Source of the DNA: a virus
IMG/VR virus record: IMGVR_UViG_3300036981_000340
Coordinates: 1-35,276 of that record
Length of the DNA stretch: 35,276 bases
Strand: one strand, 5' to 3'
Within the stretch, counting starts at the first letter, position 1. Each line of letters opens with the position of its first letter. The position numbers were made by a program, and so were the translations under genes. A model generated the notes under the pieces. It was not told where the DNA came from. It saw only the letters and a program-made list of their open reading frames with translations, and did not search any database. Positions 7,753-35,276 of the stretch are shown here, one piece after another.

Positions 7753-8952
7753 ATGGCTAAAATTAAAATTACTAAAGGTGAATTGAAATCACTCATCAAA
7801 GAAGCTATGGCTTTGGATAAAGGTCTTTTGACTGAATCAAAATCTAAGAAAGTTCAGACACATCCTTTGTACAATATTATCAAGGAAGAGTTGGCTAAAG
7901 TTAAATTGGCTCAAAAAACTAAAACAGGTCAAGTGGCAAAGAAAGTGCAAACTGCTACAAAAAAACCTGTCAACGAAGGTATTTTGAAAAACTTGGTAAC
8001 AGGTATGGCGATGTTGGCTTCAACATTGGGTGGTAAATCCATTCAAGCACAAATGGTAGAACCGCTTCCAATGGCTGATACAATCATCATCAAAGGATTC
8101 AGTCCAGCAAATGTTTCTATCACTAAGAAAGCCACTAAATATGACATGAAGGCTCTTGTAAAAAATAACACTAAAGTTGTAGGCACAGGAAGTGATATTC
8201 AATTGAGTCCAGAAACGCAAGAGGTTTTAAATTTAAAACTAGGGGCAATCATTAAAAAAGAAGGTTCAACTGTTACAATTGTACAAAACCCTAATTTGAA
8301 GACTATCAAAACAGGTGGTAGTGTCATAACAAATGACCAAACACTCAAATTGAATGTTGACCCTTCAACAAAGGTGATTTTCCAAAATCCAAATGCTGCG
8401 GAAAATGAAGGTATTCCTTTTGGAGAAAATAAAAAGTTCAAAAAAAAACCATTAACTGAAGCCCAAATTAACGAAGATGTTAAAAGTTGGGTTTTAGGTG
8501 GTATGATGGCTTTGGCAAGTTTATTTGGTGGAAAAGCAAATGCACAAACTGCTGGTACTATCCAGCCGTTAGAAAAAGTTAGCAATTTGAGTTTAGTCGG
8601 ATATGACAAAGCGGATGTTTCAATTAAAAAAGTAAAAGGAAGTCGAATAACTTATAGAGTTTTCAACGATTTAAAAGGAGGTACAATTGATGCTAATACT
8701 GAAAAAGTTATTGAAGGTATGATGGGTGTCGCAGTGCCAAATGCGAAATTGGACTCTGCTTCTAACACTTACCAGATAAAAAATCCTGAAATTAAAATAG
8801 TTGCAGGAGATTATGAAGGTGAAGGTGCATTATTGAGTCGTATTCAAAACAAATTTGGTAATTCTGTAACATCTAATCAAAGAATTGAAATTCTAGTTGG
8901 TGAAGATGCCATGAATCCAGATTTTAAATGGGAAGCTACGATGAATAAGTAG
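7753..8952 (+). CDS. Internally duplicated, possibly proteolytically processed virion protein
   Basis: 399 residues. The N-terminus (MAKIKITKGELKSLIKEAMA) belongs to the shared targeting-like class, with (L/I)-x-E sites at residues 15-17, 26-28 and 43-45. Two related halves follow. Copy 1 (from about 72) has VNEGILKNLVTGMAMLAST then GGKSIQAQ; copy 2 (from about 233) has LTEAQINEDVKSWVLGGMM then FGGKANAQ. Each is a short hydrophobic helix (about 77-92 and 243-258) followed by a beta-rich domain of about 130 residues. An xNE or xTE site precedes each copy. A prohead protease could cut it into two mature chains; this is inference. No known domain recognised. Flanked by a TATTTATA box and a strong terminator, so it is a single-gene unit. 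Confidence 0.75.
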   Translation: MAKIKITKGELKSLIKEAMALDKGLLTESKSKKVQTHPLYNIIKEELAKVKLAQKTKTGQVAKKVQTATKKPVNEGILKNLVTGMAMLASTLGGKSIQAQMVEPLPMADTIIIKGFSPANVSITKKATKYDMKALVKNNTKVVGTGSDIQLSPETQEVLNLKLGAIIKKEGSTVTIVQNPNLKTIKTGGSVITNDQTLKLNVDPSTKVIFQNPNAAENEGIPFGENKKFKKKPLTEAQINEDVKSWVLGGMMALASLFGGKANAQTAGTIQPLEKVSNLSLVGYDKADVSIKKVKGSRITYRVFNDLKGGTIDANTEKVIEGMMGVAVPNAKLDSASNTYQIKNPEIKIVAGDYEGEGALLSRIQNKFGNSVTSNQRIEILVGEDAMNPDFKWEATMNK

Positions 8953-8957
8953 AATAT

Positions 8958-9007
8958 GCAACAAAAAAAAAGACTTTTGATTAATCAAAAGTCTTTTTTT
9001 TTTGTTG
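8958..9007. terminator. Bidirectional terminator
   Basis: Near-perfect palindrome centred on GACTTTTGATTAATCAAAAG (from 8972), flanked by nine A on the left and ten T on the right. It separates the convergent genes ending at 8952 and 9008. Confidence 0.9.
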
Positions 9008-9394
9008 CTAACGATTTACATATTCAGGGTTGAAAATATGGAAAAGATAAGTTTCATCAGACTTTTTAATAGCAACAATTGATATTTCGCTATTATAATA
9101 TTGAAAAATAATAACATATTGTTCAAATTGAGTTTTCATGGTGACTCTTTTTTCCATGAAATTTTCAAATATTTGTACAGTATCTAAGAGTACAAATTTC
9201 AAAGTGTCTGTTGAGTTACTGGGATAAAAAACTACTTCTTTGTCATTGAACACAATTTGATATTCAAGTCTGCTTGGTTGCTCAATGTTGCCTTTCACTA
9301 ATACTTGGCAATTTGTTATAAGCGTGTCATTTTGTCCAAAGATGTTTCCGATTGCAAAGAAGAAGAATGTGGCTACTATTAAGATGTTTTTCAT
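9008..9394 (-). CDS. Exported small protein with signal peptide
   Basis: 128 residues. The start MKNILIVATFFFFAIGNIFG is a signal peptide with likely cleavage after IFGQ. The mature domain is beta-rich (VLVKGNIEQPSRLEYQIVFN, EQYVIIFQYYNSEISIVAIK). No lipobox Cys. It lies behind a TATTTATA box (9422-9429, 27 nt upstream), so it may be made late, unlike the other exported protein at 5222. Envelope or periplasmic role is inferred from the signal peptide only. Confidence 0.75.
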   Translation of the reverse strand: MKNILIVATFFFFAIGNIFGQNDTLITNCQVLVKGNIEQPSRLEYQIVFNDKEVVFYPSNSTDTLKFVLLDTVQIFENFMEKRVTMKTQFEQYVIIFQYYNSEISIVAIKKSDETYLFHIFNPEYVNR

Positions 9395-9421
9395 AATTAG
9401 TTTGTTTTTATTTGTCTTTGT

Positions 9422-9429
9422 TATAAATA
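9422..9429 (-). promoter_or_regulatory. TATTTATA late-type box for 9394
   Basis: Leftward TATTTATA followed by ACAAAGAC, 27 nt before the ATG at 9394. Confidence 0.6.
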
Positions 9430-9498
9430 GCCCATCATAGAGCAGTTAAATATAAAACTCAAAAGATATCCATAAAGTTCCCAAGACTTTCTTTTTTT

Positions 9499-9909: not shown

Positions 9910-10596
9910 TTAATTAATAATTTTTATAAGTGAAGGATTAAAAACAATTCGTACTGTTGATTTAACAGTTCCACCATGATACGAATCTAAAACACCAATT
10001 ACATCAATAATATCAAAGTCTAATAATTGTGCCATTGCTGCAAGTGCGTCTGTGGAAGTTTTATCATAAAGCATTTGAAGTTGGAACATTTCAAATATGG
10101 TGTCTATTTTTTCAGATGGTACACCAGCATTTTCAAAAGCAGTTCTAACATTTTCGGTTGGTAAACCACGAAAGCGTACACCAAAAGCATGTACTTTTAA
10201 AATTTTACTGTTATTTGTATCAACACTAACTCTTAAAGTTTTTGGGTCAGAATCTTGGTAATTAAATTCTCTGTGTGGGTCAGCGTAGGATTTTGCAACA
10301 GAATAATCGTCACTCAAAAATATTGGTTTTTTAATGTTAACATAAGATTTAGTATTATCTATCTCTCCACCTTTGATTAATTCAAAATATCTTTTTGGAT
10401 TTGTGAGTCTAGTATCTTGTATTTCATCAGACAAACGTTTAAATTCTTTAGGATTTTTGATAATTTCTATGGAATGTTCATGTGAGCCGAAACCACCTGC
10501 GTCTTCAATCTTTTTGGCGTTGGGAGTTCCATGATACCAAAATTTACTGTTTTGGTTTTCTGTTAGCAGATTATTGACTACTTTCCTTAAATTCAT
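9910..10596 (-). CDS. ADP-ribosyltransferase-like protein with head-targeting-like N-terminus
   Basis: 228 residues from MNLRKVVNNLLTENQ (an upstream ATG at 10632 is rejected because the TATTTATA box at 10609-10616 lies after it). Residues 1-13 end in LLTE, matching the (L/I)-x-E class. Then WYHGT (20-24), IFLSDDYSVAKSYAD (92-106) and a C-terminal strand RIVFNPSLIKII (216-227). YHGT, then a phi-FLS segment with A-x-x-YA, then a closing phi-F-P strand, is the pattern of many small ADP-ribosyltransferase-fold domains. The third catalytic residue is not certain. T4 Alt is a head-packaged, injected ADP-ribosyltransferase, so this may be an analogue. Fold call moderate; packaging inferred. Confidence 0.65.
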   Translation of the reverse strand: MNLRKVVNNLLTENQNSKFWYHGTPNAKKIEDAGGFGSHEHSIEIIKNPKEFKRLSDEIQDTRLTNPKRYFELIKGGEIDNTKSYVNIKKPIFLSDDYSVAKSYADPHREFNYQDSDPKTLRVSVDTNNSKILKVHAFGVRFRGLPTENVRTAFENAGVPSEKIDTIFEMFQLQMLYDKTSTDALAAMAQLLDFDIIDVIGVLDSYHGGTVKSTVRIVFNPSLIKIIN

Positions 10597-16661: not shown

Positions 16662-17204
16662 ATGAGCCTTTACGACAAATATCAAAAGATTTTAAGACAA
16701 GCTCTCAACGAAGATGAAGATTTTTCCATTGACAAAAAGTTGCAACAATTGATTTCAACAAAAGAAATTGAAAACATAGACCTTGCATATCAATTGGCTA
16801 AAGGTCAAAACGCTACTAAAACTTTTGAAAATATTCTTTATCACACGTTTGTGCCAAATAGTTTGCAAACACAATTTGAAGCGGATGTGAAACCTATTAA
16901 GGAGTTTTTGAACAGACCGTTAAGTGAAATATTATCAGATACAGATGATGAAACATTGTATAATCTTGGAAATGAATTAAATAATAATGGACGTGATAAT
17001 TTCGCAGAATATCGAGCTTTTTTTAGAGATGAGATTCATGATAAAGTTGGCTATGACGCAGAATATGATTCAATATTATCTAAAATTGACAACGATTTAG
17101 ATGAAATCAATAGTAAATATCAACGTTATGTTAATGGAAGTAGCATGATGTTTACAGATTTAAGAAATGTGAGAAAAGGATATAACATGTTTAAAAATTA
17201 TTAA
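16662..17204 (+). CDS. Targeting-motif protein with the pre-LRR helical module
   Basis: 180 residues. The N-terminus YQKILRQALNEDED carries an L-N-E site (residues 15-17) of the shared class. Residues about 27-50 (LISTKEIENIDLAYQLAKGQ) match the module found after the targeting motif in the LRR proteins at 28437, 32766, 33419 and 34064 (LIxSGxxENIxLAxQxxxG), yet no LRR follows; the rest is helical and acidic (LDEINSKYQRYVNG). It may be the LRR-less member of that family. TATTTATA box upstream. Ends 17 nt from the convergent ADP-ribosyltransferase-like gene, with a 19-bp repeat between. Confidence 0.7.
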   Translation: MSLYDKYQKILRQALNEDEDFSIDKKLQQLISTKEIENIDLAYQLAKGQNATKTFENILYHTFVPNSLQTQFEADVKPIKEFLNRPLSEILSDTDDETLYNLGNELNNNGRDNFAEYRAFFRDEIHDKVGYDAEYDSILSKIDNDLDEINSKYQRYVNGSSMMFTDLRNVRKGYNMFKNY

Positions 17205-17208
17205 ATTT

Positions 17209-17227
17209 ATGAAAGACCTATTAAAAT
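17209..17227. repeat. 19-bp direct repeat, left copy
   Basis: ATGAAAGACCTATTAAAAT, identical to 17836-17854. Here it is a stray start (MKDLLK then stop) after the 16662-17204 gene and includes the stop codon of the leftward 17221-17796 gene. The pair brackets that gene. Confidence 0.8.
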
Positions 17228-17796
17228 AAGCCAAGATTAACAATCTGACAAGGTTGTACTCCATAATCTGGTGATATTGCAATATATTCTACATCATGTT
17301 TTGCGTAGTTTTGATTGGTAATTATGAGCAAATCAGATGACTGCCACGATTCCACAAGATTTTCAACATTTTCTTTATTGTTTTCGACAGCCATCTGATA
17401 TTCATCTTCGTCATTGTAATCTTCTGGGTCAATTAAATAATCTTCGTTATATTCTAACAAATCTTCAATCAAATATGAGGGCATTCCTTTATAGTTTGCA
17501 TCAAATGCTTCTTGAACAGAAAGACTATCAAAACGACTTTTAGACAAATCAAACACACACGGATTTTTAGATATTAGTTTAACTTTGTAAGTCAAATCAC
17601 CCCAAGATTTTTGTGGTATATTGCTAAAGAAAATTCCATTAATTCTTGTGGAAGATTGTGATTTCATCTGAACTTCATTAAAATCAAAATCTTTTATCTG
17701 ATAATCAGTTGAATGATATGCAATAAATTCACGCTCTTGTGGTTTAACGTTTAATAATTGGTTATATTGATTTTCGTTTAAAATTATTTTTATCAT
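17221..17796 (-). CDS. Second ADP-ribosyltransferase-like protein with head-targeting-like N-terminus
   Basis: 191 residues from MIKIILNENQYNQLL; an ATG five codons earlier (17811) lies at the promoter box and would add MNNVQ, so 17796 is preferred. Residues 1-8 are the canonical motif ending L-N-E. Then FIAYHSTDY (about 24-32), GIFFSN (54-59), and near the end HDVEYIAISPDYGVQP. A YH-S/G-T motif, a GIFFS strand and a closing EYIAISP strand fit a small ADP-ribosyltransferase fold of the kind found in phage polyvalent proteins. It shares little else with 9910-10596. Bracketed by a 19-bp direct repeat, suggesting it was inserted as a cassette. Packaging into heads is inferred. Confidence 0.6.
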   Translation of the reverse strand: MIKIILNENQYNQLLNVKPQEREFIAYHSTDYQIKDFDFNEVQMKSQSSTRINGIFFSNIPQKSWGDLTYKVKLISKNPCVFDLSKSRFDSLSVQEAFDANYKGMPSYLIEDLLEYNEDYLIDPEDYNDEDEYQMAVENNKENVENLVESWQSSDLLIITNQNYAKHDVEYIAISPDYGVQPCQIVNLGLF

Positions 17797-18634: not shown

Positions 18635-20116
18635 ATGAAAATAAAAGCAAAAGATTTGAAAAAAATCCTTACGGAATCTAAAACAGATAACGCAAACAAA
18701 AAAAACATTTCGGTCAGAGACATGAAAAAAATCCTTATGGAATCTAAAACAAATAACGCAAACAAAAAAAGAATAACCGTCAAAGACCTCAAACAAAAGT
18801 TGAACGAAAGTAACGGTTTAGGTTTTGGTTATGGATTCAAAAATCAACATTCGTCTTATGGTGACCTTGGAAACCCCAATGCCAAAAATCAAAAGAAATC
18901 TGTAAGTAAGGTTAAAAAGTCTAAAGATTACATGGGTAAAAATGGTGGCACAATGTTCGGTTATGGCTTCGCTTTACAAGAGCAACTTGAAAAACTTAGC
19001 AAAGACCCTAAGAAATTGGCTTCTCTGGTTGAAAATATGGTCAAATCCATGAAAGGTAAATCTGACTACACTAACTTGAAATTCGTTGACAATGTGGCAA
19101 AAAAATACAATGTGAATGAAAGTGAAGTGAAGAAAATGAAGGCAATCATCTTGAAAGAGAATAGTCCAAAAACCGCATTGAAACTTTATAACTACATCAC
19201 AGAATGTTCTTGTCAACAAGCTGAAAGCGCTTATGGAAAATACTCTGGATTGAAAAATGAGTCTTCTGAAATGATTCCTAACATCAAAAGGACTTTCAAC
19301 AAATATCAATCGTCTGCGAATAGTTCTCAAGATGCGTTTGGAGCAACTTCTGAAAGTCTTAAAATCCCAAGGGAAATGGTGGAAGAGATGGTTGAGATTC
19401 AAAAAGAAGCTCAAAAAATGAAGACAGAAGGTCAAGGAAACAACATTACTGAAACTGATAGCAAATTGCAAAATGTCTTTGAAAAATATCAAAAAATGTC
19501 AGAAGGTGACATGTACGAAATGTACGATGAAATGGCTGAATACATGGACTATCCATCATCTGACGATATAACTACCCAAGCGATTAATGATGGCTCTATT
19601 TACGAGCGTGACGACTTTGACAGTGTGGTAGGCGGTGGAGATGATGATGACCGATTTGACAACAAATTTTCGCTTAGAGACATGCAACGTGGAATAGATG
19701 CAGAACCTGACGAATATGCTGCTTATGGACAACATAAAAAATCTAATTATGAATTGGGTTTAGATGATGACTATGTTGACCCAGATAGTCAATATGACTT
19801 TAGTGATGAAGATGATTTGGAAGATGTGTATGATGGCGCTACAACAAATAGTCGTTATAATTTTGACGAAGACGGTGATATTGTGGACATGCACCGTTAT
19901 GATGACGCTTTTGATAACTTCGGTAGTGACACTGAACTTGACGAATCTGACGACATTGAAATCGGTGACTATGACGAATCTGACGACATTGAAATGAGCA
20001 ACTACATGGCAAATATACCATGGCATGAAATGTCTTTAGAATATGAAGAAAATTTTAAAGCAGAGAGGATGAATCCCGATGGTCAATTTGATTATGATTG
20101 GGAGTCAGGATTTTGA
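18635..20116 (+). CDS. Acidic virion-type protein with three tandem targeting-like motifs
   Basis: 493 residues. The first 60 contain three copies of a 22-residue unit: DLKKILTES (E14), DMKKILMES (E36) and DLKQKLNES (E58), separated by near-identical KTDNANKK/KTNNANKK linkers. Each ends in L-x-E, the same class as the single-motif proteins. Then come two GYGF segments (about 63-68 and 109-113), a helical region (about 115-300), and a very acidic Asp/Glu/Tyr-rich tail with a repeated DESDDIE. The acidic tail and helical middle would suit a prohead core or scaffold-associated protein; inference. Single gene between a TATTTATA box and a terminator. Confidence 0.72.
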   Translation: MKIKAKDLKKILTESKTDNANKKNISVRDMKKILMESKTNNANKKRITVKDLKQKLNESNGLGFGYGFKNQHSSYGDLGNPNAKNQKKSVSKVKKSKDYMGKNGGTMFGYGFALQEQLEKLSKDPKKLASLVENMVKSMKGKSDYTNLKFVDNVAKKYNVNESEVKKMKAIILKENSPKTALKLYNYITECSCQQAESAYGKYSGLKNESSEMIPNIKRTFNKYQSSANSSQDAFGATSESLKIPREMVEEMVEIQKEAQKMKTEGQGNNITETDSKLQNVFEKYQKMSEGDMYEMYDEMAEYMDYPSSDDITTQAINDGSIYERDDFDSVVGGGDDDDRFDNKFSLRDMQRGIDAEPDEYAAYGQHKKSNYELGLDDDYVDPDSQYDFSDEDDLEDVYDGATTNSRYNFDEDGDIVDMHRYDDAFDNFGSDTELDESDDIEIGDYDESDDIEMSNYMANIPWHEMSLEYEENFKAERMNPDGQFDYDWESGF

Positions 20117-23646: not shown

Positions 23647-24681
23647 ATGAAAATAATATTAAGCGAAACGGCATATAATCAACTGCTTGGCAAACCAATT
23701 TTGCCGATTGATAAACAGAACATTCAAGAGAAATTCAATTTCACATCTTTTGAAGTGCAAGACACGTTAAATCCAGATGTTTTTGATGTTAAAAACCACA
23801 TGATTAAAGATGTTCGTAAGAAATTACTACAAATTGGCAAAGATTTTTATGATTTTCTTGGAATAGGATATGTTGACTTAAAAGATATTATCCTCACTGG
23901 TTCAATGGCAAACTATAATTGGTCTGCTTATTCAGATGTTGATTTACACGTGATTTTAGAATATAATCAAATATCTAAAAATAGTGATTTAGTTGACGAA
24001 TTTACATGGACAAAAAAGGAATTATGGAATGAGGAACACAATATCAAGATAAAAGATTATGATGTTGAAATGTATGTTCAAGATACAAAGGACAATTTGA
24101 TTGCAGGTGGAGTATATTCAGTTCTTTACGATAAATGGTTAAAATTGCCCAAGAAAGAACAGATGAATTTTAACCAAAATGCTGTCAGTAAACTAGTTGA
24201 CAATATTGAAGCAAAAATTGATGCGTTGATAAAAAGATATTTGATGGGCGATTGTTATGGATTAACGTCAGATATTGATAACATTAAGGCAGCAATTTCT
24301 AAAATGCGCAAGCAGGGTTTGGCTAACGGTGGTGAATTTTCACGTGAAAATCTGGCATTCAAAGCGTTAAGACGTATGGACTTGTTGGATAAGTTGGATG
24401 ACATGAAAAATCAATTGTATGACGACAGTTTATCAGTTGAAAAATCAAGAGGTGAGAAATTAGCATCTGGTGAAATTCAAAGAAATAGAAAACAAAGTAA
24501 ACTTGAAGATGAAGATGAAGCTGAAACAGGAGATGGAAAGGGTCGTTGGATGGTCAACGGAAGACGTTTCAAATCCTTACGAATTGCAGAAAAAGTCTTA
24601 GGGATTCCAAGGGCAACAATCCAATGGAGAATGAATAGCGACAACCCAGAATACAATGGTTACAAACAAATGGACGTATGA
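23647..24681 (+). CDS. Nucleotidyltransferase with targeting-like N-terminus and NUMOD-like tail
   Basis: 344 residues. Residues 1-7 (MKIILSE) and NQLL are the shared motif. ILTGSMANYNWSAYSDVDLH (about 82-101) has the polymerase-beta superfamily signature, Gly85-Ser86 and Asp97-x-Asp99, and KDYDVEMYVQD (about 136-146) supplies a likely third acidic residue. This matches a nucleotidyltransferase family seen in large T4-like phages, including GVYSVLYDKW. Residues about 297-344 (WMVNGRRFKSLRIAEKVLGI, then WRMNSDNPEYNGYK) resemble a NUMOD-type DNA-binding helix-turn-helix usually found with homing endonucleases. Substrate unknown. Combination is unusual. Confidence 0.8.
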   Translation: MKIILSETAYNQLLGKPILPIDKQNIQEKFNFTSFEVQDTLNPDVFDVKNHMIKDVRKKLLQIGKDFYDFLGIGYVDLKDIILTGSMANYNWSAYSDVDLHVILEYNQISKNSDLVDEFTWTKKELWNEEHNIKIKDYDVEMYVQDTKDNLIAGGVYSVLYDKWLKLPKKEQMNFNQNAVSKLVDNIEAKIDALIKRYLMGDCYGLTSDIDNIKAAISKMRKQGLANGGEFSRENLAFKALRRMDLLDKLDDMKNQLYDDSLSVEKSRGEKLASGEIQRNRKQSKLEDEDEAETGDGKGRWMVNGRRFKSLRIAEKVLGIPRATIQWRMNSDNPEYNGYKQMDV

Positions 24682-25621: not shown

Positions 25622-26938
25622 ATGAAAATATTACAAGGAAAAGATGCTCTTAATAAAGCTAATCATTTGATGGAAGCCTTAATACCATCAAATGTGAAGC
25701 ATAGTTTCAGCAACATAGAATCACAACACTTGGCACATGATGGCAAAATTTATGCTATTGTGAAAGAGAATGCTGACTTTGTTCTGAAAGTTGCCAATAA
25801 ACCAAATCCTAAAAATGCCGATGACTTTGACTACCTCAACGGACTTGGCAACAAAAATAAAAACGTCAAAAGAACTTACAGTGAAAGCGTTAGAATTTTA
25901 AATCTGATGGATGTTGAGTTCAAACGTATTTATGGTTCACGACTTATTGAAGCGTTTGTTGCTGATAAAGGGCAAATTGACGAAAAAACAGTTTTGAAAA
26001 TCAAAAATCCTAACCCTTCAACATCAACTGCATCTGAAATTCCAATGGGAAAAGATGAAATGTCTGCTGATGCTGTACCCGAAGCTCCTGCTGATGGGTC
26101 TGATGAATTTGACACAAATGATGCTAGTAATGGTGAAACCCTTGATAGTGGTGAAAATAGTTCAGAAAATCCAGATGATTATTCAGATGTTAATCCAGAT
26201 GATTTGGAAACTGACAACCCTGAAAAAATGATTCAAAAATTATCAGGAAAATTGGCTTACGAACTTAGAGATTTCGATGATTCAGACAAATATTCTAACG
26301 TTGCAAAATTCGCAATGTCTATGGCTACATCTGCACTCCAAACGGATAAAATGTCTGACTCTGATAAAAAATCTATTGAGAAGAAATTAACTGCCAAATT
26401 TGATGGTTCTGGTGATTCTGAAGACGGACAATCGGAAGATATACCGTCAGACAATGCAGAAGGTGGTGACGAACTTGACTTTGATAGTGAGCCAACAGAA
26501 GATGTGGGTCAAGACATGAATAAACAAGAATCGTTTAAAGTTAGTAAAGGTAAATTGCTTGAGATGTTTAAAAACATCAAACCAACGAAAAAAATAGTTA
26601 AAGAAAACATATTCTTTGAATTTGCCGATGAATTTGATTTTTATAATGAACCATCTGACGAATTAACAGAAGAAGATTTGGACTTAGATGTTGACGATAA
26701 TTTTGATGATGATTTTGATAGCTATAACCAATACGATGTACCACAAGAAAAAATTCTATTCGACATTGAAGAAGATATTTATTCAGAGCCAGTACGTTCA
26801 CCAAAAAATAAACAATATCAAACATCAATTGGTAATGTGAATGTCGGACGAATTGATGGTGATGATGACAGTCCGAGTGTGTCTGAATTTCAAACCAAAC
26901 AAACAACAAAAAGAAATCCTTTTAAATACATTAAATAA
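25622..26938 (+). CDS. Acidic structural/scaffold-type protein, 438 aa
   Basis: An L-M-E site at residues 16-18 (NHLMEALIPSN) fits the shared class. Residues about 35-110 (HDGKIYAIVKENADFVLKVA, DDFDYLNGLGNKNKNVKRTY) match a conserved segment (yaIvKEn... DFDYigGl.NK) I recall from uncharacterised proteins of large phages. Residues about 130-300 are acidic and low-complexity; a second basic helix FKVSKGKLLEMFKNIKPTKK (about 306-325) precedes a very acidic Asp/Glu tail. Could be a prohead-core or neck-associated protein; inference. 5 nt after the previous gene and 2 nt before the next. Confidence 0.65.
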   Translation: MKILQGKDALNKANHLMEALIPSNVKHSFSNIESQHLAHDGKIYAIVKENADFVLKVANKPNPKNADDFDYLNGLGNKNKNVKRTYSESVRILNLMDVEFKRIYGSRLIEAFVADKGQIDEKTVLKIKNPNPSTSTASEIPMGKDEMSADAVPEAPADGSDEFDTNDASNGETLDSGENSSENPDDYSDVNPDDLETDNPEKMIQKLSGKLAYELRDFDDSDKYSNVAKFAMSMATSALQTDKMSDSDKKSIEKKLTAKFDGSGDSEDGQSEDIPSDNAEGGDELDFDSEPTEDVGQDMNKQESFKVSKGKLLEMFKNIKPTKKIVKENIFFEFADEFDFYNEPSDELTEEDLDLDVDDNFDDDFDSYNQYDVPQEKILFDIEEDIYSEPVRSPKNKQYQTSIGNVNVGRIDGDDDSPSVSEFQTKQTTKRNPFKYIK

Positions 26939-26940: not shown

Positions 26941-27363
26941 ATGAAAACCAATAAAATGAATCCTTTACGCCAAATGATTGTTGAAGCAATCTTGAAAGAA
27001 GCAGCAACCAAAGAGAAAGAGAAAAAAACTTTCAATGAATTGGATAGAATGATTAGTGATGTGCGAAGCAAGTTGATAGATTTGAGTGATGCGTTTGTAA
27101 GTCATGGTTTGTCAGAAACATCTAAAGTTTTTCTTCAAATCGAAAAGATGAACCATATTCTTGCAGATTTAGACCCAGTTAAGGTTAAAATGAAAGAAAT
27201 GTTTGCACCAACACCAAATACCACACAAGGCGCAGAACAATTAGTAGGTGAAGGTGAAGACTTAAAAATGAATGCTGATGCTGACCGTAACATGGAAAAA
27301 AAAGCAACAGACATGTCAAAAAAATATCAAATGGACATTGAATTGACAGATGACCAACAATAG
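26941..27363 (+). CDS. Helical virion-associated protein, 140 aa
   Basis: Starts MKTNKMNPLRQMIVEAILKE with I-V-E (13-15) and L-K-E (18-20) candidate cleavage sites followed by Ala. The rest is nearly all helix: KTFNELDRMISDVRSKLIDL, SETSKVFLQIEKMNHILADL, and an acidic polar C-terminal segment. Size and helicity would suit a small prohead-core protein. Tightly packed in the operon. Confidence 0.65.
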   Translation: MKTNKMNPLRQMIVEAILKEAATKEKEKKTFNELDRMISDVRSKLIDLSDAFVSHGLSETSKVFLQIEKMNHILADLDPVKVKMKEMFAPTPNTTQGAEQLVGEGEDLKMNADADRNMEKKATDMSKKYQMDIELTDDQQ

Positions 27364-27369: not shown

Positions 27370-28410
27370 ATGACTAAAATCAAAATATTACTTGAAAATG
27401 CTTTGGTTCATAAGGAAAAAATTGAGCCAAACATTTTGAACGCTATCACAAATAAATCTCATTATTTGGCAGATAATTCTGCGTACCCTCAAATGATAGG
27501 TCGTGGAAATTTTTTGTTGGATTCTAGCAATAAGCATTTTAACAAGTGTCTTGGCAAGATTAAACGTTCTCACAATGCAACAGACATTACACCAGAGAAG
27601 TATTTTGAACTTAAAAAAACTATTGGTACAGTTCTATACAATATTACGAAGATTGAAGAAGAACATAAGACTGAATTAAATCAATTGGCTGAAACAATCA
27701 TTAGAAATTATTTCAATGTGCCAAATGATATTCAGTTTGAATTGTCTGATGATGGGTTTAACGTTGAACTTGGCGATGAAGTTTTGAAGGGGTTGGAAAC
27801 ACCACAACAACAAGTTCAATTTGACGACCATTCTTATATTGAAAACGCTAACAATCAAATTGATAGAAGTCGAACTAATTATGCTTTGATTTGTGGTGGT
27901 AGTAATCAAGCAATGGAACTGTTTAAAAGTTACGAAAACGCTTTAGATTCCATTGATTATCGTTTGTTTGACTTGTATCAGAAGTTTATTTCTTTCAATC
28001 ATTTCAACCTTTGGGTGACACCCGATGAAGTTTTATCCGATGAAGTTCAAAACAATAATGATTTTAAAATATATCAGAAGGGTGATGGTTATGTGATTGC
28101 AATTGAACCGAACAATTTTCTGATGACTTTGTATGAAATGTCTAAGGCTGTTTTGTCAATCCTTTTCCAAGAGAAATATGACAATTCTTATGTTGACTAT
28201 GAAAATCTATGGAATACCAGAATTGGAACGATTCTGTGGCAAGATTTTATAGAAAACATCAAACAACGCAAACATTTTCCATACATTGTTGATTCAATGA
28301 ACCAATTGAACGATTCTGACTACTTATATGTTATGAAAGAAGTGTTTGCAAAAACCAACCATGCAAAAGAGATGTTTGCTGATTTATGCGACTCATTTAA
28401 TTCAAAATAA
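27370..28410 (+). CDS. Conserved-type virion protein of unknown function, 346 aa
   Basis: The N-terminus MTKIKILLENALVHKEKIEP has an L-L-E site at residues 7-9. Helical region to about 120 with HYLADNSAYPQMIGRGN, an acidic part about 125-160, then a second globular region (YKSFNHFNLW-like, DGYVIAIEPNNFLMTLYEMS). Similar openings occur, as I recall, in structural-gene clusters of other uncultured large phages near the terminase. Exact role unknown. Confidence 0.65.
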   Translation: MTKIKILLENALVHKEKIEPNILNAITNKSHYLADNSAYPQMIGRGNFLLDSSNKHFNKCLGKIKRSHNATDITPEKYFELKKTIGTVLYNITKIEEEHKTELNQLAETIIRNYFNVPNDIQFELSDDGFNVELGDEVLKGLETPQQQVQFDDHSYIENANNQIDRSRTNYALICGGSNQAMELFKSYENALDSIDYRLFDLYQKFISFNHFNLWVTPDEVLSDEVQNNNDFKIYQKGDGYVIAIEPNNFLMTLYEMSKAVLSILFQEKYDNSYVDYENLWNTRIGTILWQDFIENIKQRKHFPYIVDSMNQLNDSDYLYVMKEVFAKTNHAKEMFADLCDSFNSK

Positions 28411-28436: not shown

Positions 28437-29255
28437 ATGAAATCCAAACTAACTATTCTATTGAACGAGAATCAATATCGTCAGATTTTTAAGGAAAATC
28501 AAACGGAGTCGTTAGAATCATATCAACAGAAACTCAAGCAAATGATAGAATCTGGTGATGAAGATAATATTCGTTTGGCATTTTCTTATGAGTCTGCAAT
28601 CCAAGCTGATTATCCTCAATTTGATATGGAATCGTTTATCCATGAAGAGTATGACGATTTGTTACTTTTGTTAGAAATACATTTATCACAATATGGAAAT
28701 GAATTAGAAGAGGATATTGTAGACCATTTAATAATGCTTTTTACAGTAGATGGTCTTGATTTATCTGAAAACGATTCTTACAATTTACCAGAAAACATAG
28801 GTGTTTTGAAAAATCTCACTTGGTTAAATTTTTATGCTGCACATTTAGGTTATCTACCAGCATCATTTTCTAATCTTAAAAACTTAAAATCACTTAACTT
28901 GGATGAAAATTATGCTTTTCAGACTATCCCAGAAGAGGTTTTAAATTTAACTTCATTAGAAGATTTATCTATTGACGACCTTAATCAACTTCCTGAAAAT
29001 ATTGGTAATTTAACAAATCTAAAAAATCTAAACATAAGTTACGCTAGAAATATAAAAACATTGCCCAATAGTTTTTCAAAATTAACTGCTTTAGAATCAT
29101 TAAATTTGTCTGGGACAGGTATAACTAATATTCCAGATTACTTCAAAAATTTCAAAAATTTGCAACGGTTAGATTTAAGTTATCTGGAAATTTCCGAAGA
29201 TGAAATTATAAGAATACGTCAAATATTGCCAAACACTGAAATAATCTTTGAATGA
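28437..29255 (+). CDS. LRR protein 1 with targeting-like N-terminus, 272 aa
   Basis: MKSKLTILLNENQYRQIF carries the motif (E11). The pre-LRR module follows (about 34-75; MIESGDEDNIRLAFSYESAI, then a short acidic helix). Residues about 100-265 are seven or so LRRs of the bacterial 23-residue type (LPENIGVLKNLTWLNFYA, LPENIGNLTNLKNLNISY). Ends ILPNTEIIFE, like the other LRR genes. Overlaps the next LRR gene by ATGA, so the two are translationally coupled. LRRs bind proteins; the target is unknown. Confidence 0.82.
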   Translation: MKSKLTILLNENQYRQIFKENQTESLESYQQKLKQMIESGDEDNIRLAFSYESAIQADYPQFDMESFIHEEYDDLLLLLEIHLSQYGNELEEDIVDHLIMLFTVDGLDLSENDSYNLPENIGVLKNLTWLNFYAAHLGYLPASFSNLKNLKSLNLDENYAFQTIPEEVLNLTSLEDLSIDDLNQLPENIGNLTNLKNLNISYARNIKTLPNSFSKLTALESLNLSGTGITNIPDYFKNFKNLQRLDLSYLEISEDEIIRIRQILPNTEIIFE

Positions 29256-29851
29256 CAATTGAAAACCAACAGATTTTAACTAACATCATAGGATTGATAG
29301 AATCCTGTGTCAAAGAAAACATTGAACTTGCATGGCAAGTCGGAATAGGCGCAGAAACATACATTCCAAATTTTAATATAAAGAAATTCCTGCTTGATAG
29401 ATATGATTTTCTCCAAATTAGTAGAAATAAAGAACATGATGACTTTGTTCAAGCTATTGTCATCCATCTTTCAGCTAAGAAATTAAGTTTCACTAATGCG
29501 ATAAGATTGCCAAATTGGCTGGGCATTCTCAAAAACCTCGAACATCTTATAATCACGCATTCATATTTTACTGAAATTCCAAAGACTATAACATCTCTTG
29601 AAAATTTGAAAAATCTTGAGATAATCCATTCAAAACTAGAAGATTTGACAAAAGACATTGGAAAAATGAAAAATCTGAAGGCTCTAAATTTGACAGGCTC
29701 ACGTGTTGGTAAATTCCCAAGGGAAATGGAAAATCTTCAGAACTTAAATGAAATATTCTTGGACGGCAATCCAATATCTTTGGAAAGTTACTACGATTTG
29801 CAAGATATGTTGCCGAATTGTACTATTTATTTGCCTTCGCAGTGTGGCTGA
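29252..29851 (+). CDS. LRR protein 2 without the targeting motif, 199 aa
   Basis: Begins MTIENQQILTNIIGLIESCV, directly at the pre-LRR module (LIESCVKENIELAWQVGIGA, then YIPNFNIKKFLLDRYDFL), so the KIILNEN peptide seen in its relatives is absent. LRRs from about residue 85 (LGILKNLEHLIITHSYFTEI onward), ending MLPNCTIYL. Coupled by a 4-nt overlap to the 28437 gene. If the motif directs packaging, this one would stay in the host cell or enter through its partner; inference. Confidence 0.8.
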   Translation: MTIENQQILTNIIGLIESCVKENIELAWQVGIGAETYIPNFNIKKFLLDRYDFLQISRNKEHDDFVQAIVIHLSAKKLSFTNAIRLPNWLGILKNLEHLIITHSYFTEIPKTITSLENLKNLEIIHSKLEDLTKDIGKMKNLKALNLTGSRVGKFPREMENLQNLNEIFLDGNPISLESYYDLQDMLPNCTIYLPSQCG

Positions 29852-29860: not shown

Positions 29861-30877
29861 CTAATATTCAAAAGTGAACAATTTTTTAGCAGTTTCCAAA
29901 CCTATTGTATTCTCAAAATAATTAAAAATATCTTCTATTGGTTCATTAACCATGTCAAATGCGCTTTGTTGATTTTTCATGTGTTTGGCGTGTTCTGGAT
30001 TGAAACTGATTGCATCAATGATAGTCGTCATAAATTCTGAACTATCTTGTGATTCATTAAAGTTCATTATAACATATACAAAATCATTTGGTGAATTATC
30101 AATCCAACTGCTATAAGCATATTCAAAATCTTTACTAGCAAAACACCAAAACGAATTACAACCGATATTTTGCATACCTTCTACTGAATCTACTCTGATT
30201 ACAAGGATATTATTCTTGTTATATAATAATTGTAAATCACTATCATCGGATATTAATTCCAACACGTTTTGAATAGTCGTTTCATTGCCAGTTATAAAGT
30301 TTTTATTATCTTGGAAAAAATCAATGAAATCTTCAAGATTATTTCCAGATTTGAACCCCTTTTCATATATTTTTGTTCGTTTTTCCGCATCTAATTTATC
30401 AATATATTCGATTATTGGTAACAGATATTCAATATCATTATGAAATTTAGACATTTCACTCGAATCTCTCGGAGTCCTTATATCATTCTTTAAATTCCTT
30501 AGAGCAATAGATGGTAACTTTTTTATACTTTCAACAACTCTCACTCTGAAATTCAATGTTCTAATTAATTCACCAATGTTGCCAACATTTAATGGGTTTG
30601 TAAAATCCTTTATTGGAAAAACATTCTTATTATATTTTTTTATCTGATTATACACAAAAGATAATTCACCAAGTAAATCAAAATAGTCTGTTATCTCTTT
30701 AGTGTGTCGCAAATAATAATAAACATCTGCAATCAACTTCGTGTAATTATCACCATTGGTTACAGATAAAATAAGTTCTTTGACATCACCATCTAACAAA
30801 CCAGTTTTAAAATAAACTTTGTCAGCTAATTGTTGATTTTCTTTGATAATTGCTCGAATAATTGTTCGTAATTTCAT
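29861..30877 (-). CDS. Targeting-motif protein with a WCFA module, 338 aa
   Basis: MKLRTIIRAIIKENQQLADK ends its opening helix in I-K-E (11-13) followed by NQ, as in the other motif proteins. Largely helical to about residue 215, then ILVIRVDSVEG and GCNSFWCFASKDFEYAYSSW (239-258), then YVIMNFN. A (G)-x-SWC-like strand pair followed by F-x-x-Y and a phi-YVI strand recurs in many large-phage proteins I recall, of unknown function. Convergent with 29851, only 9 nt between, no terminator visible. TATTTATA box at 30899-30906. Confidence 0.68.
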   Translation of the reverse strand: MKLRTIIRAIIKENQQLADKVYFKTGLLDGDVKELILSVTNGDNYTKLIADVYYYLRHTKEITDYFDLLGELSFVYNQIKKYNKNVFPIKDFTNPLNVGNIGELIRTLNFRVRVVESIKKLPSIALRNLKNDIRTPRDSSEMSKFHNDIEYLLPIIEYIDKLDAEKRTKIYEKGFKSGNNLEDFIDFFQDNKNFITGNETTIQNVLELISDDSDLQLLYNKNNILVIRVDSVEGMQNIGCNSFWCFASKDFEYAYSSWIDNSPNDFVYVIMNFNESQDSSEFMTTIIDAISFNPEHAKHMKNQQSAFDMVNEPIEDIFNYFENTIGLETAKKLFTFEY

Positions 30878-30974: not shown

Positions 30975-32762
30975 ATGGTTGAAGAAACTAAAATAGTAAA
31001 CAAAAAATATGCTCAAAACAGGGCAAAACAGGAAATAGCAAGCGACTATTATGAAGGCTTGTTAAATCCTGCGTTTATTATTGAAAAATACATGAAAACT
31101 GTCACCAAAAACGGTTATAGACCTTTCGTTTTATTTCCTAGACAAAGAGAGATAGTTGAAGCATACGAAACATATCGTCATAACATTGTAACCAAACCTC
31201 GACAAACTGGTGTTTCTACAACAACCGCAGCTTATTTAGCAGTAAAAGCAGCCTATACAGACCCTGAAAAACCAGAATTGATTGTTATTGCTGCAAACAA
31301 ATGGAAATCTGCTAAAAACTTTTTAGGACTTATCCGAAAATACATGGCAGATTTGCCTTCTTGGATTTGGGGAAAATATTATGACCACGACAAAGCAATT
31401 GAAGGTCATATAGATGGGAAAGGTTCTACTGAAACTTTAACATTACTTAACGGTACAAGAATAATTGCTGTTGCTACATCGCCTGACACATTACGTGGTT
31501 TGACACCAACTTTTCTTATATTAGATGAAGCTGCGTACATTAAATCTTTTGCGAAAGAATTATACACGGCATCAATGGCATCTCTTATTATAGGTGGTAA
31601 AATGATTATTATTTCTACACCGAATGGTAAAGATGAACTCTACTATAAAGTGTATGTTGGCGCAAAATCTGGTGAAAATAATTTCAATTTAGTTCGCTTG
31701 GAGTGGTTTGAAGACCCTAGATACAACGTTGATTTAGAGTGGCATAAGACCTACGATGATGGTAAAATTGAAATATTAAAAGAGGAACTTTTCACCTTTG
31801 AATCATTTGCAAGTATGGTTAAAAAAGGGTACAAAGCGTACTCTAGTTGGTATCGTGATACTTGTGCTGCATTGAACAATGATAAACTAGCAATCGCCAG
31901 AGAACTTGACGTTAAATTTGAAGGTTCTGCTGGAACAGTGGTCGAACAAGAATGGCTCACGTTCCACGAAAAATACAACGTTATAGAACCATTAGTCAAA
32001 TGTGAAACAGAAGACCGTCTTTGGATTTTTGAAGAACCAATTGAAGGTCATCAATATATCATGGGAGTTGACGTTAGTAGTGGTAATGCAGATGACTATT
32101 CGTCTATGGTTATTATAGACACACTCACAGGATTTCAAGTTTTAGAGTTCAAAGGAAAAATAAGACCTAATGAATTGGCAGTAATTGTCAACAAATATGG
32201 TCTTTTGTACAATTCACTAACTGTCATTGATACAACTGGCGGTTATGGTGATTTACTTGTGTTTAGTTTGGAAGAATTGAATTATGGTTTACTTTATTAC
32301 GATAAAGGTAAACAAGACCATTTGAAAAAACACCCAAGTACACAAGTAGATAAAAATAAATTGGTTGCAGGTTATAAAATAGGTACATTTAGACCGCAAA
32401 TTATAGGTAAATTAACTGCTGCAATCGAAGCCAACGAATTTAAAATACGTTCTCAACGTTTGATTGGCGAACTAGAAACATTTGTTTGGGTTAACGGAAG
32501 ACCCGACCACATGTCTGGATTCAACGATGACGTTATTTTTGCTGCTGCCCTTGCACTATGGATTTTGGAAACAGAGTTCAAAAGTCTTGCTCGTGCAAAA
32601 GAGAAAACTACAAGCATCTTATCAGTTTGGGCTGGTACAAGTAACAAAGAAGTGAAAAAAGTTGAATCGAATTTACCTGTTCAATTAAATCAAAACAGAA
32701 ATCAACCGATGAAAAATGTTCAAGACCCAATGGGACAATATAGTTGGCTTTTAGGTAGATAA
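30975..32762 (+). CDS. terL: Terminase large subunit, T4 gp17 type
   Basis: 595 residues, close to T4 gp17 (610). ATPase: Walker A KPRQTGVST (74-82), Walker B LILDEA (181-186), coupling motif STPNG (214-218). Nuclease: MGVDVSSGNADDYSSMV (first acidic, Asp366), VIDTTGGYGD (Asp419, where T4 has Glu), FNDDVIFAAALA (Asp518/519). The enzyme packages DNA into the prohead and cuts concatemers. No small subunit was recognised nearby. The gene starts the late rightward block containing three LRR genes, only 3 nt before the first of them. It places the phage among T4-like large myoviruses, which use (L/I)-x-E prohead proteases. Confidence 0.95.
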   Translation: MVEETKIVNKKYAQNRAKQEIASDYYEGLLNPAFIIEKYMKTVTKNGYRPFVLFPRQREIVEAYETYRHNIVTKPRQTGVSTTTAAYLAVKAAYTDPEKPELIVIAANKWKSAKNFLGLIRKYMADLPSWIWGKYYDHDKAIEGHIDGKGSTETLTLLNGTRIIAVATSPDTLRGLTPTFLILDEAAYIKSFAKELYTASMASLIIGGKMIIISTPNGKDELYYKVYVGAKSGENNFNLVRLEWFEDPRYNVDLEWHKTYDDGKIEILKEELFTFESFASMVKKGYKAYSSWYRDTCAALNNDKLAIARELDVKFEGSAGTVVEQEWLTFHEKYNVIEPLVKCETEDRLWIFEEPIEGHQYIMGVDVSSGNADDYSSMVIIDTLTGFQVLEFKGKIRPNELAVIVNKYGLLYNSLTVIDTTGGYGDLLVFSLEELNYGLLYYDKGKQDHLKKHPSTQVDKNKLVAGYKIGTFRPQIIGKLTAAIEANEFKIRSQRLIGELETFVWVNGRPDHMSGFNDDVIFAAALALWILETEFKSLARAKEKTTSILSVWAGTSNKEVKKVESNLPVQLNQNRNQPMKNVQDPMGQYSWLLGR

Positions 32763-32765
32763 AAT

Positions 32766-33413
32766 ATGAAAAAGAAAATACTTTTGAACGAAGGGCAATA
32801 TCATTTATTGTTTGAGAATGACAATCAAAAATTCATTGATGAGGTGAAGAACCTCATAAGCAGTGGTCAAATTGAAAACATTGAAACTGCGTTACAAATG
32901 GGCAAATGGATGAAAGCCGAAGGGATTTTTGATGTTAAGAAATATTTAGCTGAAGAATATAAAGGCTTAGTTAAATTTTTAAAAAGTGTAAATTACCAAG
33001 TAAAAAATGGAAATTACATTGAAAATATTGTTTATATGTTAAATTTAACACGTGTAGATTTAGGTGTCGCTGCACTCGGAATATTACCGAAAGAGATTGG
33101 TCAATTAAAAAATTTAACAACATTAATCGCTACAAATAATCATTTGAAAGATTTGCCAAAAGAAATTGGCAATTTGACGAATTTAGAATGGTTAGCTTTA
33201 GCAGATAACCATCTCACGTCTTTGCCAAGTGAAATAGGTCGATTGCAAAATTTAAGGATTTTATCTTTGCCAAATAACCGTCTCACGTCTTTGCCAAGTG
33301 AAATAGGTCGATTGCAAAATTTAACAACTTTGAATTTGTCTAATAATCCATTACCCTTACAAGAAAAAGCAAATATTGAAAAAATGTTACCAAATTGTGA
33401 TATAGAATTTTAG
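32766..33413 (+). CDS. LRR protein 3 with targeting-like N-terminus, 215 aa
   Basis: MKKKILLNEGQYHLLFE carries the motif (E9). Pre-LRR module about 24-65 (LISSGQIENIETALQMGKWM, VKKYLAEEYKGL). Canonical LRRs from about 105 to 205 (LPKEIGQLKNLTTLIATNNH, LPSEIGRLQNLRILSLPNNR), ending MLPNCDIEF. Two adjacent repeats are almost identical at DNA level (69-bp period), a sign of recent repeat expansion. Starts 3 nt after the terminase stop and is probably co-transcribed with it. Confidence 0.85.
   Translation: MKKKILLNEGQYHLLFENDNQKFIDEVKNLISSGQIENIETALQMGKWMKAEGIFDVKKYLAEEYKGLVKFLKSVNYQVKNGNYIENIVYMLNLTRVDLGVAALGILPKEIGQLKNLTTLIATNNHLKDLPKEIGNLTNLEWLALADNHLTSLPSEIGRLQNLRILSLPNNRLTSLPSEIGRLQNLTTLNLSNNPLPLQEKANIEKMLPNCDIEF
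33212..33330 (+). repeat. Near-identical 69-bp LRR units
   Basis: TCTCACGTCTTTGCCAAGTG starts at 33212 and again at 33281, exactly 69 bp (23 codons) apart; about 45 bases are identical. This points to recent in-frame duplication within the LRR gene. Confidence 0.85.
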
Positions 33414-33418
33414 CCTTT

Positions 33419-34027
33419 ATGAAAATAATACTTAACGAAAATCAATATAAACTTTTATTTGAATTTGATGATTTTTCCAAAGAATTAACGGAAATTAAAA
33501 ACTTGATTGAAAGTGGACTAGAAGAAAATATAGTTTTAGCATTTCAAATTGGTGAAGGCATGGAATCTTATGTTCCTAATTTTAATATGTTTGGATTGAT
33601 AAGTTATAATTATGGTTCATTGTTAAATCTTATTAGAATACGCAAAACAGATAGTATGCCACAAAAATTATTGAATTTATTTGATACAACAACATTAAAA
33701 TTATCAGGTCATAGACTATTTAAATTACCATTAAACTTAGACAAATTAAAAAATCTTCAGACATTAGATTTAAGTTCAAATGATTTTTCACAGTTTCCAA
33801 TGGGATTATGTTCAATGACATCATTAATAAACATCAAACTAAACGACAATAAAATAAGTGAAATCCCACCTTGTATCGCCAACTTAAAAAATTTGGAATA
33901 TTTAGGCTTACGAAATAATCTATTGTCAGAGGACGACTATAAAACAATAAGTAAATACAATCCGAAGACTATTATAAGTTTTACAGATAATATCTATGCA
34001 CAACATAATAAAGTTCACAGATATTAA
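33419..34027 (+). CDS. LRR protein 4 with targeting-like N-terminus, 202 aa
   Basis: MKIILNENQYKLLFEFDDFS is the archetype of the motif (E7). Pre-LRR module about 28-60 (LIESGLEENIVLAFQIGEGM, YVPNFNMFGL). Degenerate LRRs about 90-170 (LPLNLDKLKNLQTLDLSSND, IPPCIANLKNLEYLGLRNNL). The tail is different from other LRR genes (TIISFTDNIYAQHNK). The first 59 bases are identical to those of the 34064 gene and the proteins align end to end, so this is a recent duplicate. Confidence 0.82.
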   Translation: MKIILNENQYKLLFEFDDFSKELTEIKNLIESGLEENIVLAFQIGEGMESYVPNFNMFGLISYNYGSLLNLIRIRKTDSMPQKLLNLFDTTTLKLSGHRLFKLPLNLDKLKNLQTLDLSSNDFSQFPMGLCSMTSLINIKLNDNKISEIPPCIANLKNLEYLGLRNNLLSEDDYKTISKYNPKTIISFTDNIYAQHNKVHRY

Positions 34028-34063
34028 AATTTCGGCAAATTGTAACATAGAATTTTAACCTTT
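34028..34063 (+). pseudogene. Relic of the 3' end of an LRR gene
   Basis: AAATTGTAACATAGAATTTT followed by AACCTTT matches, with few changes, the last codons and spacer after the 32766 gene (AAATTGTGATATAGAATTTT followed by AGCCTTT), including the in-frame ending NC(N/D)IEF-stop. The duplication that produced the 34064 gene therefore copied the junction, and the body of an upstream LRR gene was lost. Confidence 0.7.
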
Positions 34064-34711
34064 ATGAAAATAATACTTAACGAAAATCAATATAAACTTT
34101 TATTTGAATTTGATGATTTTTCAGAACAATTAGACAACTTAAAAAGATTGATAGAGTCAGGTCAAGAAGAAAATATCAAACTTGCCTTCGAGATAGCTAC
34201 AGGAATGGAATCTTATATCCCAAATTTTAAACTTGAAACTTGGTATAAAGAACAATATCGAGAATTATTAGACTTCCTTATAACTAATAAATACAACAAT
34301 GTACTTTCTAAAGGACATTGGTTTCACACATTTCTTAAAAATTTCCTGAATGTGTTAAACAGTGATGTTATCACTTTTAGCGATAAAGATTTAGTCAAAT
34401 TACCAAAAGGATTCCAAAAATTCCAAAATCTCCACACTTTAATTTTAAGTTATAATAAATTTTCAGAGTTTCCAGTAGTATTATGTTCAATGGAATCACT
34501 AAAAAGAATAAACTTGCAACATAATCAAATATCTGAAGTACCATCTTGTATTGCCAACTTAAAGGGGTTGGAATATTTAGATTTACGAGACAATCTATTA
34601 TCAGAAGGTGACTATGAATCAATAGGTAGATTAAATCCTAGTGCAATAATCCGTTTCACTGATAACATATATATTCTAAATAACCAAATTCACAATTATT
34701 ATAAACAATAG
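34064..34711 (+). CDS. LRR protein 5 with targeting-like N-terminus, 215 aa
   Basis: MKIILNENQYKLLFEFDDFS is the same as in the 33419 gene; identity then falls through the pre-LRR module (LIESGQEENIKLAFEIATGM, YIPNFKLETWYKEQYREL) and the LRRs (LPKGFQKFQNLHTLILSYNK, VPSCIANLKGLEYLDLRDNL). The tail IIRFTDNIYILNNQIHNYY parallels its twin. So the N-terminus is frozen while the binding surface drifts, as expected for diversifying paralogues with a fixed sorting signal. Confidence 0.82.
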   Translation: MKIILNENQYKLLFEFDDFSEQLDNLKRLIESGQEENIKLAFEIATGMESYIPNFKLETWYKEQYRELLDFLITNKYNNVLSKGHWFHTFLKNFLNVLNSDVITFSDKDLVKLPKGFQKFQNLHTLILSYNKFSEFPVVLCSMESLKRINLQHNQISEVPSCIANLKGLEYLDLRDNLLSEGDYESIGRLNPSAIIRFTDNIYILNNQIHNYYKQ

Positions 34712-34715
34712 CAAA

Positions 34716-34723
34716 TATTTATA
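34716..34723 (+). promoter_or_regulatory. TATTTATA late-type box for 34774
   Basis: Exact TATTTATA followed by TAAAAACTC, 50 nt before the ATG at 34774. Confidence 0.62.
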
Positions 34724-34773
34724 TAAAAACTCGTTTTCACAATACAACAAAAAGAACAAACAAAAAATTACAA

Positions 34774-35276
34774 ATGACTTACACAATAAAACCATTAGAC
34801 GTGATGCTTTTAGAAGCATATCAAAATAAAGACAAAGGAGCTGCTACTAAAATATTGAACGAACTTCGCAAAAATCCGAAACAAAAGATGTTGTATGCGC
34901 TTGTTGACAATTTGAAAAATGGTTCTGTTCCTTTGGTTGACATTGACAGTTTTATCAATGAGAACATAGAAATGGCAAAATCTTTACAAATAAACAAACT
35001 GAAACCATTATTTGAAAATAAAGTCTCGTCAAAGACAAAAGAACAAACAGCAGAACCATTAGTTCAAGCAATAACAACTTTACTATTTGAAGGAAAAACT
35101 GCTCTGAACATGAGTGAGTATTACAAATCCTTTGCATTAGTTCGTGAACATTTGACTTCCATTAATTCAAAAGACAATCTGTTCACAGAAGATTTGAAAA
35201 GTTTTGACCAAGAATATTCAAACCTTGACGAAGCTGACAAAGTGATTGTTGAAAGTTTATTCAAAACACCACATAG
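34774..35276 (+). CDS. Helical virion-type protein, C-terminus outside window (partial)
   Basis: ATG at 34774 opens a frame still open at the last base (167 codons visible). It starts MTYTIKPLDVMLLEAYQNKD, with an L-L-E site at residues 12-14 followed by Ala, fitting the shared class. The rest is helical and charged (AATKILNELRKNPKQKMLYA, SFINENIEMAKSLQINKLKP), without membrane segments. With a late-type box and the terminase upstream, a head, core or tail protein is likely; no specific family recognised. Confidence 0.65.
   Translation, partial: MTYTIKPLDVMLLEAYQNKDKGAATKILNELRKNPKQKMLYALVDNLKNGSVPLVDIDSFINENIEMAKSLQINKLKPLFENKVSSKTKEQTAEPLVQAITTLLFEGKTALNMSEYYKSFALVREHLTSINSKDNLFTEDLKSFDQEYSNLDEADKVIVESLFKTPH

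Follow-up and report, generated by a model that had tools for sequence, protein, structure and literature searches.

Why do 15 proteins of one viral DNA fragment, most of them with dissimilar bodies, begin with a short basic/hydrophobic peptide that ends in (L/I)-x-E? This question is raised by IMG/VR record IMGVR_UViG_3300036981_000340, a linear virus fragment of 35,276 bases that was analyzed over its full length (hereafter, the window). The original prediction interpreted these N-terminal peptides, here called tags, as head-targeting propeptides. Our results support this reading through a gp21-type prohead protease gene (Peptidase_S77) in the related viral contig G001, the specificity of the motif, and the location of LxE at the borders between prefixes and bodies; processing and loading would follow by analogy with T4. 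Thus, the tags likely constitute a T4-type capsid-targeting propeptide system, a conclusion that is well supported in silico, although not proven. The peptides and the associated statistics, their confinement to the starts of viral genes, the swapping of prefixes, and the S77 and gp23 genes of G001 are established directly.

The recurring tag classes are type a (MKIILNE/NQYxxLLxE) and type b (MKxxIRKILKE/S), where the slash follows the Glu, and type c (KIIKLNE/NDIENLVKKIIKE), which was seen in relatives. All 15 proteins and each Glu listed in the original prediction were verified, and the large terminase and one leucine-rich-repeat (LRR) protein, which it had left outside the tag set, are indeed untagged. 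These features are as follows (numbers after motifs give the Glu residue; ORF, open reading frame).

7753..8952 (+), tagged protein, MAKIKITKGELKSLIKE/AMALDKGLLTE/S, IKE17 and LTE28; moderate confidence
9910..10596 (-), tagged protein, MNLRKVVNNLLTE/NQ, LTE13 counted from the ATG at 10596; high grade
16662..17204 (+), tagged protein, MSLYDKYQKILRQALNE/DED, LNE17; lower confidence
17221..17796 (-), tagged protein of type a, MIKIILNE/NQYNQLL, LNE8 when numbered from the ATG at 17796, residue 13 in the longer ORF; high grade
18635..20116 (+), protein with three tandem tag-like repeats, KDLKKILTE/S, RDMKKILME/S, and KDLKQKLNE/S, LTE14, LME36, and LNE58, C-terminal part acidic; high grade
23647..24681 (+), tagged nucleotidyltransferase-fold protein, MKIILSE/TAYNQLL, LSE7; high grade
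25622..26938 (+), protein with LME/A, Glu at residue 18; moderate grade
26941..27363 (+), protein with IVE/A at 15 and LKE/A at 20; moderate grade
27370..28410 (+), tagged protein, MTKIKILLE/NA, LLE9; moderate grade
28437..29255 (+), tagged LRR protein of type a, MKSKLTILLNE/NQYRQIFKE/N, LNE11; high grade
29252..29851 (+), LRR-family protein without a tag, body from the first residue; a natural contrast
29861..30877 (-), tagged protein of type b, MKLRTIIRAIIKE/NQ, IKE13; high grade
30975..32762 (+), large terminase of T4 gp17 type, untagged
32766..33413 (+), tagged LRR protein of type a, MKKKILLNE/GQYHLLFE, LNE9; high grade
33419..34027 (+), tagged LRR protein of type a, MKIILNE/NQYKLLFE, LNE7; high grade
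34064..34711 (+), tagged LRR protein of type a, MKIILNE/NQYKLLFE, LNE7; high grade
34774..35274 (+), protein with LLE/A, Glu at 14, ORF open at the contig end; moderate grade

The bodies had been called unrelated, which holds for most of them. The exceptions are the four LRR paralogues (28437, 32766, 33419, and 34064) and 16662, in which the segment behind the tag resembles the one in the LRR family; moreover, 33419 and 34064, whose tags are near-duplicates, look like the result of a recent duplication. Thus, the tags do not represent 15 independent events.

We read the window as a fragment of a large T4-like phage whose host is probably a member of Bacteroidota. Its terminase matches the T4 gp17 family (phrog_2, E=7.9e-42) and shares 64% identity with that of the closest relative, G001 (184,534 bases), while the nearest terminase among named phages, that of Flavobacterium phage immuto, is 27% identical. 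Since the terminase is present, the fragment adjoins head genes. The gp21-type protease expected by the original prediction outside the window was found in the head-gene cluster of G001, where a Peptidase_S77 gene (36260-36754, E=1.2e-21) lies about 5 kb past the terminase and is followed by a scaffold-like gene (36995-38161) and then by gp23, the protease and gp23 being 5-9 kb downstream. In a second relative, G055, the KIIKLNENDIENLVKKIIKE class of tagged genes is located between the protease and the scaffold/capsid genes. The gp23 proteins of G001, G055, and a third relative, G011, all have LxE before the likely mature start, where cleavage is predicted. Among IMG/VR records of at least 75 kb, S77 was found in 19 of the 27 tag-bearing records vs 1 of the 11 random ones (p=8e-4); among those of at least 30 kb, the counts are 28/58 and 4/44, respectively (p=1.4e-5). 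The first random control held only four records of at least 75 kb, and a second one was added. This co-occurrence of tags and S77 across records is good but not clean.

In T4, capsid-targeting sequences of 10-19 residues are cut by gp21 after L/I-x-E, and the ADP-ribosyltransferase Alt is packaged (PMC9026906). From T4 and the relatives, we infer docking, cleavage, presence in the particle, and injection for the tagged proteins, in the following order: (i) late in infection, the basic/hydrophobic N-terminal helix of each tagged protein would bind the prohead core, (ii) the protein would be enclosed during assembly of the gp23-type shell, (iii) the S77 (gp21-type) prohead protease encoded by the phage itself would cut after (L/I)-x-E, and (iv) the mature cargo would remain in the head and most likely enter the host along with the DNA. 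The phages would use several tag classes interchangeably (a and b, and c in relatives), and type-a tags may dock where the shell subunit docks.

The same peptides might instead serve processing only, the tagged proteins being structural or core components of the head that are mostly not injected, are packaged by other signals, and are released or activated by cleavage. The T4 core proteins gp22, gp67, and gp68 are cut at LxE (PMC9026906), and three proteins of the window, 34774, 18635, and 25622, are acidic or encoded close to head genes: the homologue of 34774, G001 33583, is sited between the portal and the protease, a prohead-core gene position like that of T4 gp67/gp68, and 25622 occupies a syntenic position upstream of the terminase in relatives. 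Nevertheless, we consider this explanation unlikely, since many tagged bodies are enzyme-like (ADP-ribosyltransferase, GNAT, DHH, and nucleotidyltransferase) and vary between phages, which suits cargo better.

The diversity of the bodies is large. The 252 tag-type proteins collected from the window, three relatives, and pattern matches fall into 173 body clusters under a loose rule that admits some false members. Tagged bodies in relatives include ART-PolyVal, GNAT, DHH, and OmpA domains, and those of G001 include ART-PolyVal ADP-ribosyltransferases; the ADP-ribosyltransferase label of the original prediction is thus borne out in G001 and unconfirmed for the window proteins 9910 and 17221. The 9910 body has a YHGT motif and is ADP-ribosyltransferase-like by eye, no relatives of it were found in viral contigs, and its single-sequence structure model (mean predicted local distance difference test (pLDDT) score of 32) is unusable and gives no support for the label. 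The predicted nucleotidyltransferase nature of 23647 is backed by fold matches, with nucleotidyltransferases at the top; in its AlphaFold2 model, which is moderate (mean pLDDT 66.5), residues 1-36 have pLDDT <50 and a folded body comes after them. Hydrophobic segments were observed within the tagged proteins 7753-8952 (GMAMLASTLGG), which consists of two similar halves with such segments, and G055 69365-70390 (ALAGLIALASM). Tagged proteins of this kind are possibly envelope-acting cargo, as the latter has an OmpA domain.

The position of LxE was compared in two protein families in which the body is kept but the tag has been exchanged or lost. In the YG-x-G-x-KWC family, to which 29861 belongs as a distant member (E=3e-5), the prefixes of the 52 aligned non-redundant members differ, and yet the residue bordering the conserved body is Glu in 48 of them and the upstream P3 residue is L, I, or V in 50. 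The window LRR family and its G001 relatives carry the unlike prefix classes MKIILNENQY-, MDISKINKIMKKRLDEGFF-, and MSLYDKYQKILRQALNE-, and a hydrophobic-x-E (L, I, or M) occupies one alignment column in 13 of the 15 proteins; the remaining two, window 29252 and G001 68932, have no prefix and start with the body. LxE thus stays at the border when conserved bodies carry swapped prefixes.

Type-a tags also resemble the end of the capsid propeptide, LYENQAxxLxxE. A profile trained on type-a cargo tags only was scored on G001, G055, and G011. The propeptide site of the G001 major capsid protein (ALLYENQARALVE) ranks 2nd of 51,289 positions, and the corresponding segments rank 5th of 61,512 in G055 and 21st of 77,200 in G011; these ranks are not independent, because the capsid proteins are homologous. 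T4 gp23 contains FENQ, but further upstream, and the immuto capsid segment is ILENQAKQIVSE/A. The likeness, seen at the level of sequence, is suggestive, and type-a cargo may use the docking site of the shell protein.

These observations bear on a second alternative, in which the tags are some other sorting or regulatory element: a ClpC degron, a membrane or replication-compartment signal, or a common oligomerisation helix. N-terminal helices are able to play such roles, and the phage encodes a ClpA/ClpC-type ATPase. However, such an element would leave unexplained why the tags end strictly in L/I-x-E, why this ending falls where the body begins, and where the likeness to the capsid propeptide comes from, and S77 co-occurs with the tags; we regard it as very unlikely. 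A host secretion signal peptide was rejected by inspection, since the tags are short, charged, and Glu-ended, with no long hydrophobic core or signal peptidase site; true-looking signal peptides were seen, by the same inspection, in window proteins 5222 and 9008.

Short N-termini rich in K, I, L, N, and E, an AT-rich genome, a loose LxE motif, and a few LRR paralogues could together mimic a shared tag by chance. Indeed, LxE alone at residues 5-20 occurs in 20-26% of control stretches, and 4 of the 15 proteins are LRR paralogues; the weak single cases (16662, 25622, 26941, and 27370) therefore carry less weight. We applied a strict rule, by which [LI]xE must end within residues 6-20, be preceded by at least one K/R and by nothing acidic, and be followed by N, S, D, A, T, G, or Q. 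This start is found in 10 of the 29 genes right of 7.7 kb vs 1.1% of internal stretches (p=4e-11) and 2.4% of composition shuffles (p=9e-10). With a uniform ORF set, the window gives 9/43, compared with 4/953 in random viral contigs and 4/624 in those that are AT-rich (p=5e-9). The relatives give 14/178 (G001), 17/204 (G055), and 13/244 (G011), and the available part of the immuto genome gives 5/98. The tags had been described as absent from positions 1-7591, which holds under the strict rule, while a looser rule gives a weak signal at ORFs 278 and 850.

The specificity of the tag classes was assessed with DNA patterns in IMG/VR. The type-a pattern, encoding MK[IV][ILV]L[NST]E[NS]Q, matches 35 contigs, in all 35 at a gene start without an upstream in-frame ATG, and the same codons in scrambled order match no IMG/VR contig. 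In 257 Gb of prokaryotic genomes, it has two matches, neither at a gene start, so that the check for host matches came out on the side of the original prediction, as did the scan of related phages, which revealed tags on many further proteins. The type-b pattern, encoding MKx[IL]IRK[IL]LxE, matches 52 loci in viruses, almost all of which are gene starts. Chance or AT-richness as the source of the tags was rejected on the basis of the random-contig controls and the scrambled pattern; together with the conserved border Glu (48/52), this makes coincidence highly improbable.

The peptide MKIILTENQ occurs on 8 bodies in 7 DNA spellings. Since identical peptides use different codons on different bodies, it is the peptide that is kept and not the DNA, and a shared DNA element behind the tags was rejected on this ground. 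We identified a box, ATATTTAT[AT], upstream of ten window genes, including the terminase and seven tagged genes; the named sites precede 9910, 16662, 17221, 17836, 18635, 23190, 29861, 30975, and 34774, several of them in a GTTCATATTTATA context. In G001, the box precedes the terminase, protease, scaffold, and other genes in addition to tagged ones. Tagged genes are clearly enriched for the box in G055 alone (p=3.5e-4), the window showing a weak enrichment (p=0.08). Judged by sequence, the box is a candidate late promoter, unlike that of T4 (TATAAATA), which is not enriched upstream of tagged genes. A mobile 5' gene cassette of promoter and start region, spread by recombination and encoding a functionless peptide, would fit the recurring box and the swapping of prefixes between bodies but is scarcely credible given the differing codons of identical peptides, the box before untagged structural genes, and the fact that unlike prefixes have LxE alone in common.

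Several results weigh against a capsid-targeting propeptide system. On T4 itself, the strict rule gives 3/188, which is not above background and does not single out the T4 internal proteins; T4 is missed because its tags contain acidic residues, and therefore the rule measures the present tag style and not every capsid-targeting sequence. Some homologues of 23647 and 25622 in G011 have no clear tag, so LxE on these two proteins may be incidental. The gp21 search of the 35-kb window found nothing, and the window has neither a protease nor capsid genes of its own; since it ends inside the homologue of the G001 33583 gene, the protease, scaffold, and gp23 genes may lie just beyond. Among the 27 large tag-bearing records, 8 have no S77 match; these are fragments, several of them also without a full gp23. 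Finally, counted per megabase, S77 shows no excess in type-a records relative to the first control (2.65 vs 2.35).

Additional features were observed around the tags and the head genes. A zinc-ribbon-like module, CxxCGWSWDxSDGGDDxYxCHKCGHDN, directly follows both type-a and type-b tags (L034:5578-7065, L057, L085, L090, L096, L097, L103, and L107). A second box, DFDWV or similar, often comes after type-b tags (L056-L107; L162-L172 in G055), and in G055 genes of this kind lie side by side in long stretches at 8187-10071 and 37886-49770. Another N-terminal module, MAxxKPNxFPxxTxxDGTEExYTQT, is common to the otherwise different proteins 23190-23642 of the window and 2906, 35139, and 118425 of G001. 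The G001 homologue of 26941 begins with MKNNLLIKE/G. In G001, the portal gene (31157-33559) directly follows the terminase and has a long insert ending in VFVSN-C, intein-like by eye; in the window, three LRR genes occupy that slot, and no portal gene was recognised within the 35 kb.

Comparison with known systems places the tags closest to the T4 capsid-targeting sequences of IPI-IPIII, Alt, and gp21 (PMC9026906, PMC12373910). Both systems combine short N-terminal peptides ending in L/I-x-E, such as MKTYQEFIAE/A and MAKINELLRE/S of T4, with non-homologous bodies; the relatives have an S77/gp21-type protease, and ADP-ribosyltransferases are among their tagged proteins, as Alt is among those packaged by T4. 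The T4 core MKTYQEF was not found in the tags described here; it is specific to T-even tags and does not define the mechanism. The T4 tag can bring a foreign protein into the head when fused to it. T-even phages have at least ten such internal proteins, and all three of those of T4 block restriction enzymes (PMC12373910), whereas here tens of genes per genome are tagged, with several unlike tag classes, tandem tags (18635), and one class that is capsid-propeptide-like. The inner-head (ejection) proteins of phiKZ and SPN3US are likewise numerous head proteins cut after Glu by a related protease, several of them ejected; in SPN3US, however, cuts follow A-x-E and several propeptides exceed 100 residues, whereas the present tags mostly have 7-30 residues and L/I-x-E (PMC5694885). 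The nearest named terminase or capsid proteins belong to the far-T4 phages (PMC4360716), Rhodothermus phage RM378 and immuto. The latter, a cultured phage, has tags such as MKKSQLRQIIKE/A and MKKQILSE/Q, and its tagged proteins include immuto26A_176, _177, _191, and _199. These terminases are only about 27% identical to that of the window. No description of a tagged cargo set in RM378 or immuto was found in the text searched, and the open-access literature searched holds no description of such a tag system in these phages, which is weak evidence.

Tags as such are thus known from T4; what is new is their number per genome (dozens), the interchangeable classes, the tandem tags of 18635, and the capsid-propeptide likeness. 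These features tentatively suggest a large-scale address code, which we find plausible but hold less firmly than the propeptide system itself: tens of proteins would be loaded into the capsid via a few interchangeable tags, one class copying the capsid propeptide (LxENQxxxLLxE), and any gene that gains a tag would become delivered cargo. If the propeptide reading is right, one phage could deliver many different proteins into a bacterium with its DNA, and the sequence alone would show which uncharacterised genes of large environmental phages have products that are carried in the particle and are probably the first to arrive in the host. It would also yield new short tags for protein loading into phage heads and the testable idea that the tags bind where the propeptide of the capsid protein itself binds. 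As T4 internal proteins disarm restriction enzymes (PMC12373910), the tagged genes would supply a large number of unexplored candidates for anti-defence and takeover proteins.

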